From Acidobacteriota bacterium (GTDB taxonomy: Bacteria > Acidobacteriota > UBA6911 > RPQK01 > JAJDTT01): a stretch of DNA of 64,000 bases. Both the position numbers and the translations under genes were made by a program. The stretch is taken from the NCBI GenBank assembly GCA_028874215.1, contig JAPPLF010000087.1, positions 1 through 64,000 on the forward strand, given 5' to 3'. Position 1 is the first letter of the stretch; the number at the start of each line of letters is the position of its first letter. This document shows, piece after piece, positions 51,729 to 55,959 of the stretch. Below the pieces are notes generated by a model. It made no database searches. It had not been told where the DNA came from and saw only the letters and a program-made list of their open reading frames with translations.

Positions 51729-52097
51729 TCAGATGCACGCCGCGCAGCGACCAAAGAGAATCAGCTCGTGGCCGTCGACCTCGAAACCCTCCGGTGCCAG
51801 CTCCTCGACTTTGTCCGGACACCTGTCGACGTCGAACACCAGATCGCAAACTCGGCAGAGGAAGTGGTGGTGATGCGGACGCTCGGCCAGTTCATACCGG
51901 AGCCCGGCGCCCGGAAGCTCCACTTCCGACAACCACCCCTCGCCCGTGAGGATCTTCACGTACCGGTAGACGGTGGCCAGCCCGAGTGACGGCATCATCT
52001 GTTGGCCGTGCTTGAGGACCTCTCCGGCCGTGAGGGGGCGCCCGGCATTCATGAAAACCCGGCGGATTACTCGGCGCTGTCGGGTGTCTCGTTGCAT
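51729..52097 (-). CDS. Fur-family metal-responsive transcriptional regulator
   Basis: A 122-residue Fur-family repressor. A winged-helix DNA-binding part (residues 1-70, GLATVYRYVKILTGEGW) is followed by the metal-binding half with HHHH (75-78), CRVC (81-84) and a C-terminal CAAC (118-121), i.e. two CxxC structural zinc sites. The sequence does not decide among Fur, Zur or other metal specificities; the neighbouring MerC and permease genes would fit zinc. ATG 52097 was preferred to one 22 codons upstream because a 20-bp palindrome at 52120-52139 lies in front of it, as expected of an operator. Confidence 0.85.
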   Translation of the reverse strand: MQRDTRQRRVIRRVFMNAGRPLTAGEVLKHGQQMMPSLGLATVYRYVKILTGEGWLSEVELPGAGLRYELAERPHHHHFLCRVCDLVFDVDRCPDKVEELAPEGFEVDGHELILFGRCAACI

Positions 52098-52119
52098 CGA
52101 GGTTGGCGTTATCGATGGA

Positions 52120-52139
52120 ATCGTTTCGTGACAAACGAT
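52120..52139. promoter_or_regulatory. Palindromic operator candidate upstream of the fur-family gene
   Basis: ATCGTTT-CGTGAC-AAACGAT: perfect 7-bp arms with a 6-nt centre, 23-42 nt upstream of the chosen start. The size fits an operator for a dimeric Fur-family repressor and autoregulation. Binding is inferred only. Confidence 0.5.
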
Positions 52140-52184
52140 ATCGACAGGGGCCGAGCGACCCACCGCTGACGATCGTCGTCACTC

Positions 52185-52607
52185 TCAGCGATCTGCTTGC
52201 TCCTCGTCGGCGCATACTGCGCACGCGTCCGCCTGGCAGACACGGGCACTCTGCAACAGGGCGGCTGCCAGGATCAGACTGCCGGAAGCCGACGTGACGG
52301 TTTCCGGCAGCGGCTCGAGCCAACCGGCGAGGGAGGCTGCCCAGAGTGCTGCCCCTCCAAGGAAGGTGAGGACCACGGCAGCGTTCCGGCAAGCCGAGCC
52401 CAGCGCGAGCATGACCCCGCCGAGAAAGACCGTCCCGAACCACACGGCTCGTTCGACACCTTCGGAGAGCGCAAGTGCGGGTGTCGCCGCGACCAGGAAC
52501 GGCGTGAGTGCGCAGTGCAGGCCACACCAAGCCGCAGCACACGCCGTGAGTCGCGAGCCGGTCGCCAGATGCGTGTTCGACGGGACTGTTACGAGACTGT
52601 TCCTCAT
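52185..52607 (-). CDS. MerC domain membrane protein
   Basis: A 140-residue inner-membrane protein with about four hydrophobic segments. The first has the MerC motif WCGLHCALTP (C28, H31, C32, P36). A cysteine-rich tail (VCQADACAVC) follows. MerC proteins move mercury or, in non-mercury settings, other soft metals. With a Fur-type regulator next door, zinc or iron-like metal homeostasis is at least as likely as mercury resistance; no merA or merR is near. A Fur-box-like site lies about 52-71 nt upstream of its start. Confidence 0.75.
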   Translation of the reverse strand: MRNSLVTVPSNTHLATGSRLTACAAAWCGLHCALTPFLVAATPALALSEGVERAVWFGTVFLGGVMLALGSACRNAAVVLTFLGGAALWAASLAGWLEPLPETVTSASGSLILAAALLQSARVCQADACAVCADEEQADR

Positions 52608-52658: not shown

Positions 52659-52678
52659 GTAATGATAATTCATTCTCA
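52659..52678. promoter_or_regulatory. Fur-box-like site upstream of the MerC gene
   Basis: GTAATGATAATTCATTCTCA, close to the Fur/Zur consensus GATAATGATAATCATTATC and containing AATGA-TAAT-TCATT. It is 52-71 nt upstream of the MerC ATG. Confidence 0.5.
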
Positions 52679-52827: not shown

Positions 52828-54597
52828 TTAACCGTGGTGGCCCTTGAGCGAGATCTCTCCGACGAAGCCTCTGACGCCCCGTTTCAGCAGCGAATACGTG
52901 TAGAGGCCCGCCAGCAGGATCAGGCAAAGAAGTTCCAGGTTGGCGGGAGCGCCGGCTGCGGGACCCTCCAGCGCCGTGGCCGGGATCTCGGGCAGGATCG
53001 CGTTGGTCAGATATCCCATCGCCACCGCAAGCAGGATGATGGTGACACTGAAACAGAGGGCGATCCTGCGGCCGTGGAGTTGTGCCAGGACACCGAAGGT
53101 GGTCACGTTTGTGGCGGGTCCGGTCAGGAGAAAAGCCAGCGCCGCGCCTGGGGAGACTCCCTTGAAAAGGAGGACCGCGACGAACGGGGTGGCGCTGGAG
53201 GCGCAGACGTAAGTGGGAAGCCCGAGTATGGCGAACGCCGGGATCTCCAACGCCGCGGGCAATCGCTGGAGCCAGCTCGTCGGCAGGAACGCCTCCACCA
53301 CAGCCGCCAAAACCAGGCCGAAGACGATCCAGGGTGCGGTGTGATCGACGGCATCCCCGAATCCGTTCGAGAGGCCCTGCCGAATTTTCTGACCCAGGGG
53401 TAGCGAAGCCGGGCTTCCACAATATTCCGCCGACTCGGTTTGGCTGCCAAGACGCGGCACCAGGCGTCCCACGATCCATCCCACGAGCAGGGCCACCAAG
53501 GCAGCGGCGGCGACGCGAACGATGGTCATTTTTCCCCCCAAGAGGGGGATGGAGAGAAGGACCGCATCGAGTCCCAACTCCGGTGTCGAGATGAGAAATG
53601 CCATGGCCGCCGTAGCGGGAGCACCGCTCCGGACCAGGGTCCGATACAGGGGGACCACACCACAGGAGCAGATCGGGAAGGGCAGGCCGACGGCCATTCC
53701 CCGCATCGCCTGGTTCCACTGCCGGCCGCGGCGCATCCAGGCGATGGAGGATCGGGTCAGGAAGGAGTTCATGAATCCCGCAACCAGGTAGGCGATCAGC
53801 AGTGCGGGAGCTCCCTTCAGAGCCAGTTGGAAGAAGGTCGAGACGATTCGCTCCCCGGCGGCCGCGTGAGGCATATGCTCGATCTGAAACAGGGCCGTCA
53901 GCAGAACCACTCCCAGCAACGAGCCCGCGCCCGAGACCCATCTCTGCATCCCGGATCCGGCAGGGACGAGGTCACCGATCCTGGACCGTGTCAGTTGCAG
54001 GGTCGCATGGAGCAGGAATCCCGCCGTGAGCGCCTGGAACCAATCCGCGCTCTGTCCGTACGGGTCGGCGAGGACTCCAGGTCCCCAAAAGAAGCCCAAG
54101 CCGGTGCCGAGCAGGATGGGCGCCAAAGCGCCAGCCGCTACCCAGGAGCCGTACCGCGGCCGCAACAGCCACCAGACAGTGAGACCCACTGGGAAAAGGG
54201 GCGAGACGACAACCGAAGGGAGAAGATTCCAGCCGGATTCGCCACCGTAGTCGTGTGCGCTGATGACGCCACCGTCCATCGCCGAGTGCAAACAGAGGCC
54301 CAGCAAGCCGAGAGCCAAGGCCGTCAGGTGAGCGCGAACAGTCCTCTCAGGATAGAACCGCTTGGCCAGGCCGGGAGCCAATATCCCTGCCAGAAAGAAG
54401 AAAACGGCCTCCCAGTGGCCTCGGACGAGGATCGGCAGCAGGATGCTCAGGAACAACACACCGGGCATGGTCACGAAGATGAACCCATCCAGGAGGATCT
54501 GCATCCTCCCGTGGGCTCGCGCCAAATGGCAGATGAACGGTCCCAGGCAGAGACTCAGCAAGCTGGCCAGCAGCAGTTGACTCTCGCCGGTGCTCAA
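52828..54597 (-). CDS. Permease joining a ZIP-like half to an ArsP/SO_0444-type metal efflux half
   Basis: A 589-residue membrane protein with roughly 14-16 hydrophobic segments. The C-terminal half (residues ~255-560) carries PFPICSCGVVPLYRTL (C310, C312), LPTYVCASSATP and GVSPGAALAFLLTGPATN, the signature of SO_0444-type permeases (COG0701/ArsP_1) linked to copper, zinc or organoarsenical efflux. The N-terminal ~200 residues are a separate hydrophobic unit in which LCLHSAMDGG (H104-D108) resembles the metal-binding helix of ZIP transporters. I infer a fusion of uptake-like and efflux-like domains; the ZIP assignment is tentative. It is followed by MerC and a Fur-family gene on the same strand. 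Confidence 0.7.
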   Translation of the reverse strand: MSTGESQLLLASLLSLCLGPFICHLARAHGRMQILLDGFIFVTMPGVLFLSILLPILVRGHWEAVFFFLAGILAPGLAKRFYPERTVRAHLTALALGLLGLCLHSAMDGGVISAHDYGGESGWNLLPSVVVSPLFPVGLTVWWLLRPRYGSWVAAGALAPILLGTGLGFFWGPGVLADPYGQSADWFQALTAGFLLHATLQLTRSRIGDLVPAGSGMQRWVSGAGSLLGVVLLTALFQIEHMPHAAAGERIVSTFFQLALKGAPALLIAYLVAGFMNSFLTRSSIAWMRRGRQWNQAMRGMAVGLPFPICSCGVVPLYRTLVRSGAPATAAMAFLISTPELGLDAVLLSIPLLGGKMTIVRVAAAALVALLVGWIVGRLVPRLGSQTESAEYCGSPASLPLGQKIRQGLSNGFGDAVDHTAPWIVFGLVLAAVVEAFLPTSWLQRLPAALEIPAFAILGLPTYVCASSATPFVAVLLFKGVSPGAALAFLLTGPATNVTTFGVLAQLHGRRIALCFSVTIILLAVAMGYLTNAILPEIPATALEGPAAGAPANLELLCLILLAGLYTYSLLKRGVRGFVGEISLKGHHG

Positions 54598-54831: not shown

Positions 54832-55959
54832 ATGCGGCCGCCGTCTCTGTTTCCCACCACTGTCGTCGGCAGCCTTCCCCGGCCCCAATGGGTCATGGAC
54901 CTCTTCGCCCAGGAGATTTCGGGACAGGTCGTTCCGGAGACCTTCCAGTCCCGCCTGGACAGTGCGGTCCTCTACGCCATCCAGCTCCAGGAAATGGCCG
55001 GGGTCGACATCATCAGCGATGGCGAATACCGGCGCGAGAGCTACGTCAAGATCTTCGCGCAAAGCGTGGGGGGATTCGAGAGGGACCTGCTGGACGGCTC
55101 GGCGATTCTGGATGACGGCCAGTTCTACGACAGCCGGGCCCGCCGGGTGGTGGCGCCCTCCCAGGCCGAGTCTCCGCTTCGCTATCCGGCGGTGGTCCGC
55201 CCTGTCGAGGCCGGCCGTCCGGTGGTCCTGGACGAAGCCAGGTTCCTGCTGAGCCACACCTCGCTGCCGGTCAAGGTGACCCTGCCCTCGCCCTACATTC
55301 TGGCCCGGCGCCTCTGGCATCCCGATTATTCCCGCGACGCCTATCCGACCCGGCAGGATTTTCTGAATGACATCATCCCGGTTCTGCGCCGGGAAGTGCG
55401 TGAGCTGGAGGCCCTGGGGGTCTATTTCATCCAGTTGGACGATCCGTGGCTCTCGCTCTTTGTGGACGAAGGCTACCGGAGCCATTTCGAAGCCGTGGAG
55501 CGGGAGATCCAAACCAGCATCGACTGCATCAACCAGGTCGTTTCGGACACCCGGCAGGCCAAGACCGGAGTCCACTTCTGCCGGGCCCATTACAATCGCA
55601 GTACCGGGTTCAGAGGAGACTATTCCTATCTCCTCCCCTACCTGAAGGACCTTCGAGTCGACCAGTTGGTCATGGAATTCGCTCTGCCCAACGCCGGATC
55701 TCTGGAGGTTCTGGAGGCGTTTCCGGAACATCTGGAATTGGGACTGGGTTGCGTCGACGTCCGGGCCGAGGAAATTCCCCCGCCCGCCCGGATCGTGGAG
55801 ATGGTGCGCCAGGCGGTCCGCTACGTGGGGCGCGAGAGGATCACTCTGAATCCCGATTGCGGCTTCGCTCCCTCCAACACCAACCCGATTCCCGTGGACG
55901 AAGCGTACCGCAAGCTCAAGGCCATGGCCGAGGCGGCCCGCCGGCTGAGAGAGGAGTAA
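54832..55959 (+). CDS. Cobalamin-independent methionine synthase (MetE C-terminal) family protein
   Basis: A 375-residue TIM-barrel protein of the MetE-C/UROD superfamily. TTVVGSLPRP at the start, GVDIISDGEYRRE, FIQLDDPWLSLF, VHFCRAHYNRS (zinc H and C) and NPDCGFAPS (zinc C) are the usual positions. Such stand-alone short proteins may move methyl groups between thiols and other donors; they are not full MetE. GGAGAG before the ATG fixes the start. No cobalamin or SAM riboswitch was seen in the 234-nt upstream gap. Confidence 0.8.
   Translation: MRPPSLFPTTVVGSLPRPQWVMDLFAQEISGQVVPETFQSRLDSAVLYAIQLQEMAGVDIISDGEYRRESYVKIFAQSVGGFERDLLDGSAILDDGQFYDSRARRVVAPSQAESPLRYPAVVRPVEAGRPVVLDEARFLLSHTSLPVKVTLPSPYILARRLWHPDYSRDAYPTRQDFLNDIIPVLRREVRELEALGVYFIQLDDPWLSLFVDEGYRSHFEAVEREIQTSIDCINQVVSDTRQAKTGVHFCRAHYNRSTGFRGDYSYLLPYLKDLRVDQLVMEFALPNAGSLEVLEAFPEHLELGLGCVDVRAEEIPPPARIVEMVRQAVRYVGRERITLNPDCGFAPSNTNPIPVDEAYRKLKAMAEAARRLREE

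Follow-up and report, generated by a model that had tools for sequence, protein, structure and literature searches.

A ZIP-derived domain fused to an ArsP_1/SO_0444-type permease in Acidobacteriota and other bacteria

SO_0444-type permeases (NCBIfam NF033936; Pfam ArsP_1, PF03773) form a Cu/Zn efflux family that has been characterized chiefly through expression data and the fitness of mutants. The Shewanella gene SO_0444 is required for growth under zinc or copper stress, a role shown for SO_0444 only (PMC3219624), and a member of the family in Nitratiruptor is induced by cadmium and copper (PMC10092412). ZIP proteins (Pfam PF02535) belong to a family known for uptake. The ligands in BbZIP are M99, H177, N178, E181, Q207, D208, E211, and E240 (PMC9873690), and the zinc-coordinating set consists of H177, E181, Q207, and E211 (PMC9278863). 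Here we describe a gene that joins relatives of both families in one chain. No description of a ZIP/ArsP fusion was found in one open-access literature library; such a search does not prove absence, and the architecture is apparently undescribed.

The two-part gene and its permease half

The gene lies in a stretch of 64,000 nucleotides from an Acidobacteriota bacterium (GCA_028874215.1, contig JAPPLF010000087.1, positions 1 to 64,000), here called the window. Its parts are as follows.

52828-54597, minus strand: fusion gene, 589 amino acids, TTG start; architecture repeated in loci L006, L007, and L008
53875-54597, minus strand: ZIP-like domain, residues 1-241; eight predicted transmembrane (TM) helices, assigned by hhalign to a ZIP profile and by structural match to BbZIP
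54271-54288, minus strand: TM4 motif HSAMDG, residues 104-109; aligns to BbZIP H177-N-L-P-E181-G
54184-54204, minus strand: TM5 motif SPLFPVG, residues 132-138; family form LHRxPVG or LHRxPEG
53851-53883, minus strand: interdomain linker, residues ~239-249; short in the window copy, predicted periplasmic
52978-53865 (for residues 245-540), minus strand: ArsP_1/SO_0444-type permease domain, residues ~245-580; Pfam ArsP_1 match at 251-532
53659-53670, minus strand: CSCG, residues 310-313
53185-53220, minus strand: LPTYVCASSATP, residues 460-471
53107-53121, minus strand: GPATN, residues 493-497
52858-52941, minus strand: C-terminal extra helix, residues 553-580; the short tail behind it ends in KGHHG

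A preliminary description of this DNA had reported a 589-residue protein with HSAMDG, CSCG, LPTYVCASSATP, and GPATN, and every one of these motifs is present, in a gene on the minus strand whose surrounding open frame spans 600 codons. Its hydrophobic N-terminal unit of about 200 residues is real and proved to be longer, with eight helices over residues 3 to 241. A single open frame of this kind could in principle arise by misassembly or by chance read-through of two neighboring genes, but we saw nothing in favor of either. Because the two-part gene recurs in a genome of the same genus (90% identity to the window copy) and, with an aligned N-domain, in two other families of the order, we dismiss an assembly or frame artifact; the open fusion is repeated in dozens of genomes from several phyla, the fused C-halves cluster together, and we regard the chance of such an error as negligible. 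The fusion of two metal-transporter halves in one chain is real and recurrent, and the search for other two-part proteins that the preliminary description had proposed found the arrangement to be common.

The C-terminal half belongs to the ArsP_1 family, with a match over residues 251 to 532 (E 4e-44; 151 bits against a cut-off of 32.3), and carries the CSCG, VCAS, and GPATN motifs of the SO_0444 group. The SO_0444 model aligns to it nearly over its full length, but the scores of 212 bits for the whole protein and 215 bits for the C-half lie below the NF033936 equivalog cut-off of 300. Motif-intact fused C-halves score 199 to 240 bits against the same cut-off, and two gammaproteobacterial ones score 152 and 23 bits. 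The fusion further differs from the SO_0444 family in occupying its own side of the tree and in having an extra ZIP-like N-domain and linker. Since the fused C-halves score under the NF033936 cut-off, a zinc or copper substrate would be assigned to them by analogy. SaoE efflux transporters (NF040736) and other ArsP_1 permeases share the superfamily, but the fusion scores 152 against a SaoE cut-off of 325. A structure search with residues 245 to 540 returned AbgT-family YdaH (Z 13.5), NaDC3/NaCT (13.2 and 13.1), and ArsB (12.7), and the permease half is predicted to adopt an elevator-type fold.

Added domains occur on other SO_0444-type permeases as well. In contrast to the fusion described here, the added part is a C-terminal HMA metal-binding domain (L132 and L134) or an HflK-like SPFH domain (L131 and L137, same phylum), placed at the opposite end. 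The window's own genome has a permease-SPFH fusion similar to those in L131 and L137 on contig C31 (L004:10754-12337, minus strand), in which the SO_0444-type permease end is cut by the contig end; nearby are two further SPFH genes and a gene for a Peripla_BP_6 protein, and a stand-alone ZIP-like protein is encoded at a distance of about 4 kb.

ZIP kinship and predicted fold of the N-terminal half

The preliminary description had guessed the ZIP assignment from the short HSAMDG motif, and the N-half might instead have been the additional helices that SO_0444 permeases usually have, with a chance likeness to ZIP. In favor of that explanation, the N-half of the window copy escapes ordinary annotation, because no Pfam or NCBIfam model, Pfam Zip (PF02535) and its curated cut-off included, picks up its first 202 residues at E values up to 1. 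Direct comparison of the window protein with PDB sequences gave no relevant match.

Profile and family searches gave a different answer. Fused homologs were found in other families of the order and short stand-alone homologs in the same genus, one of them in the window's own genome. A profile of eight N-domains from fused and stand-alone relatives (A1), searched across 396 genomes of the phylum, retrieved proteins of about 245 amino acids at E 4e-12 and weaker, and the four of these that were scanned are Pfam Zip proteins at 65 to 91 bits. Alignment of the N-domain profile with a ZIP profile by hhalign covered residues 6 to 242 with a probability of 99.2% (E 9e-20). Taken individually, 33 N-domains gave 23 matches to Pfam Zip (best E 2.6e-10), none of them from the window copy. 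The fused protein L093, from Myxococcota, exceeds the curated Pfam cut-offs for both halves in one chain (ArsP_1, 171 bits against 32.3; Zip, 36.2 against 35.1). Searches of PDB sequences with profiles A2, A3, and A4 did not reach BbZIP; L093 reaches it weakly by sequence (E 0.007), and the ZIP of the window's own genome matches it strongly. When A1 was aligned by hhalign to this one ZIP sequence, the probability was 1.8, from a thin profile.

Structure prediction on the N-half separately, as had been suggested, yielded an eight-helix ZIP fold. The AlphaFold model has a pLDDT of 87.5 for the whole protein and 90.5 for the N-domain (N-domain pTM 0.85) and has eight helices spanning residues 3 to 241. 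In a VIA search, the top eight matches to the N-domain model were all BbZIP (Z 9.4 to 10.1, 190 to 212 residues aligned); the next fold followed at Z 7.4, which leaves BbZIP as the sole strong structural match, extending over residues 1 to 241. Foldseek ranked BbZIP entries first to eighth (probability 0.94 to 1.00) with E values never below 0.001, and the fold call accordingly leans on this ranking and on the sequence evidence. Loops assigned to the cytoplasm hold 7.7 Lys plus Arg per protein versus 1.2 in loops assigned to the periplasm, and both ends of the N-domain are therefore placed outside. Both domain ends of BbZIP likewise lie outside.

Profile, family, and fold tests thus all give ZIP, the SO_0444 model starts past the N-half, and the domain is missing from stand-alone SO_0444 proteins, so that extra helices with a fortuitous likeness are very improbable. 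Descent of the N-half from a ZIP transporter is supported. The initial guess was right on grounds broader than its motif: HSAMDG is a retained landmark and merely one of several. Shared with ZIP proteins are the eight helices, TM4 H-x3-D/E-G, TM5 H-x-x-P, TM2 landmarks resembling BbZIP D89 and P110, and, in most members of the fusion family, the TM7 His (H275). The fusion family differs in the loss of the second metal site (M2), the usual loss of the TM5 Glu, an extra TM7 His (H197), and the attached permease.

Metal-site residues, decay, and spread

In alignments with BbZIP, H104 corresponds to H177, D108 to E181, position 133 to Q207, 134 to D208, 137 to E211, T165 to E240, and 201 to H275. 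By these positions, the fusion family keeps three positions of the first site (M1) as His, Asp, and His and has lost M2, in which N178 is replaced by Ala or Ser, D208 by Arg, and E240 by Thr. TM4 H-x3-D-G and TM5 H-R-x-P make up a one-metal site that is retained in most members. At position 137, Val or Ile predominates, with Glu in L093 and five Gemmatimonadota fusions; L093 and L191 to L195 show all four M1 positions as H, D, H, and E (TM5 HRLPEG). Among twenty loci chosen by profile, H104, D108, and H133 occur in all 20 and Glu137 in 6, one of which (L202) is an outlying stand-alone ZIP-like protein. For a set of 80 loci, the search patterns themselves contained a stretch of TM5 along with the TM7 His, which biases counts at 137 and 197.

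The window copy keeps H104 and D108 of the M1 ligands but has Pro at 133 and Val at 137. The preliminary description had linked the two halves to uptake and efflux in one polypeptide. This does not follow, as the TM5 Glu is absent in most copies and the TM5 His is also absent here, and simultaneous uptake and efflux by the window copy is unlikely on its residues. For the family at large, a bifunctional carrier would import through the ZIP half and export through the permease half, or combine them in one relay, with metal flowing both ways. Fusions with the full HRLPEG motif exist (L093 and L191 to L195), loop charges place both domain ends outside as in a ZIP importer, and elevator folds are found in both halves; against this, the TM5 Glu is missing from most members, the window copy included, other residues occupy the second metal site, and two carriers working against each other within a chain would dissipate the gradient if they were not gated. 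We consider such a carrier unlikely in general and plausible solely in members that retain the full set of four M1 ligands. Judging by the residues, the ZIP half may be competent for transport in the Glu137-keeping Gemmatimonadota and one Myxococcota fusion. It is unlikely that both halves are active carriers in these HRLPEG-type members, which would make each chain a valve for metal in both directions, with a periplasmic linker between its ZIP importer and its SO_0444-type exporter.

The fused ZIP half is probably decaying in the window's genus while the permease half is kept. Three lines of evidence suggest this: H133P and R134L, an excess of dN in residues 86 to 204, and a deletion in a third same-genus genome (G002). 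Relative to the sister gene, SPLFPVG in the window copy reflects point substitutions at three residues, where Leu became Ser, His became Pro, and Arg became Leu, and no indel. Identity to the sister gene is 76% over residues 86 to 204 versus 95% over the permease half, with dN of 0.134 versus 0.027 and dS of 0.287 versus 0.088; because dS is raised alongside dN, this one pair does not separate faster local divergence or recombination from relaxed selection. The copy in G002 (L009) has lost residues ~57 to 195 in frame, together with the permease end. Stand-alone paralogs in the genus keep the ZIP metal site.

Some members could show the opposite division, in which the ZIP half does the work and the ArsP_1 half is a scaffold or relic. 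Copies from Shewanella, Psychromonas, Moritella, and Motilimonas have lost CSCG, the TPE Glu, and GPATN and keep H104, D108, H133, R134, and H197; a shortened permease beside an intact ZIP-like half is found in L032, L033, L037, L049, L054, L058, L061, L064, and other Shewanella loci. ZIP-site positions are kept in nearly every alignment row, even where the permease lacks CSCG and GPATN, and N-domains also occur alone. The window's genus shows the reverse, with intact permease motifs and a broken ZIP site. For the gammaproteobacterial branch, the pattern of retained residues makes it likely that the ZIP half works and the permease is spent; as an account of many members this is rather unlikely.

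Fused forms occur in Acidobacteriota, Gemmatimonadota, Myxococcota, Binatota, Latescibacterota, marine Gammaproteobacteria, and one Planctomycetes-labeled MAG. Among 64 genomes of the Gemmatimonadota phylum group, 17 have a strong match, which in almost every case lies within a long fused frame. In the C-half tree, fused sequences group on their own side (support 86/54; 85% of bootstrap trees), a topology that is compatible with a single ancient fusion event without proving it. In the N-domain tree, a stand-alone group joins a fused Gemmatimonadota sequence (100/100), which suggests later loss of the permease half in that group. Among the loci examined, no stand-alone N-domain directly adjoins a stand-alone SO_0444 gene.

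Linkers, neighboring genes, and proposed function

Interdomain linkers average 18% His and 20% Asp plus Glu, versus 4% and 6% in the whole proteins, a mean weighted heavily by one Moritella linker with GHDDHV repeats and one Psychromonas linker with 54 His. Long His/Asp/Glu repeat linkers of 195 and 103 residues are present in L047 and L028, and many members have His/Cys-rich C-terminal tails.

Downstream of the fusion gene in the window, on the same strand, lie merC and then fur, with a Fur-box-like repeat upstream of both.

52663-52678, no strand: Fur-box-like inverted repeat TGAgAAT-GA-ATTaTCA (TGAGAATGAATTATCA), between the fusion gene and merC
52185-52607, minus strand: MerC-like membrane protein, 140 amino acids; 27.2 bits, just below the Pfam cut-off of 27.6
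51729-52163, minus strand: Fur-family regulator; Pfam FUR, 8.6e-20; NCBIfam models all under cut-off

The repeat is matched in the sister contig L016 as TGAGAATCGATTATCA. Its position between the fusion gene and merC supports control of merC-fur and not directly of the fusion gene, and no match to it was seen in the intergenic stretch between the fusion gene and the divergent gene on its other side (54832-55959, plus strand), which encodes a cobalamin-independent methionine-synthase-type catalytic domain. The L009 remnant adjoins the same methionine-synthase-like gene. Neighbor genes of relatives outside the window's genus revealed no shared metal operon and no fixed metal neighbors. A CDF cation exporter immediately precedes one stand-alone ZIP-like protein (L181:3074-4769, minus strand), which lies downstream of it, and another such protein (L176) lies near OEP and HlyD-type efflux genes.

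A role in metal handling is proposed on the basis of the His-rich linkers and tails, the merC-fur adjacency, the CDF-adjacent N-domain, the zinc/copper phenotype of SO_0444, and the HMA-bearing relatives. On balance, we lean toward a single-chain metal efflux permease of the Zn/Cu type with a ZIP-derived metal-binding module. The C-terminal half would be the transporter proper, and the metal that it exports via CSCG, VCAS, and GPATN would be thiophilic or divalent, of the Zn/Cu type. A typical ZIP-derived half would bind one metal ion and deliver it to, or gate, the exporter, acting as a metal-binding module rather than a full importer and perhaps also as a dimer scaffold, and the linker may serve as a metal sink or relay. 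In the window copy, whose ZIP half is probably decaying, what is left would be an efflux permease, and the role of the N-domain would be largely structural.

The fusion ties a domain derived from an uptake family to an efflux-type permease. Its members present graded states, from the full ZIP motif through loss of the Glu and loss of the His to deletion of the domain, with a mirror series in the decay of the permease motifs, and these states let mutation tell which half does what. Knock-out is feasible because members occur in culturable Shewanella, strain ANA-3 included, and Psychromonas, and the fusion offers a way into the question of how metal reaches the SO_0444-type permeases, which have been little studied.
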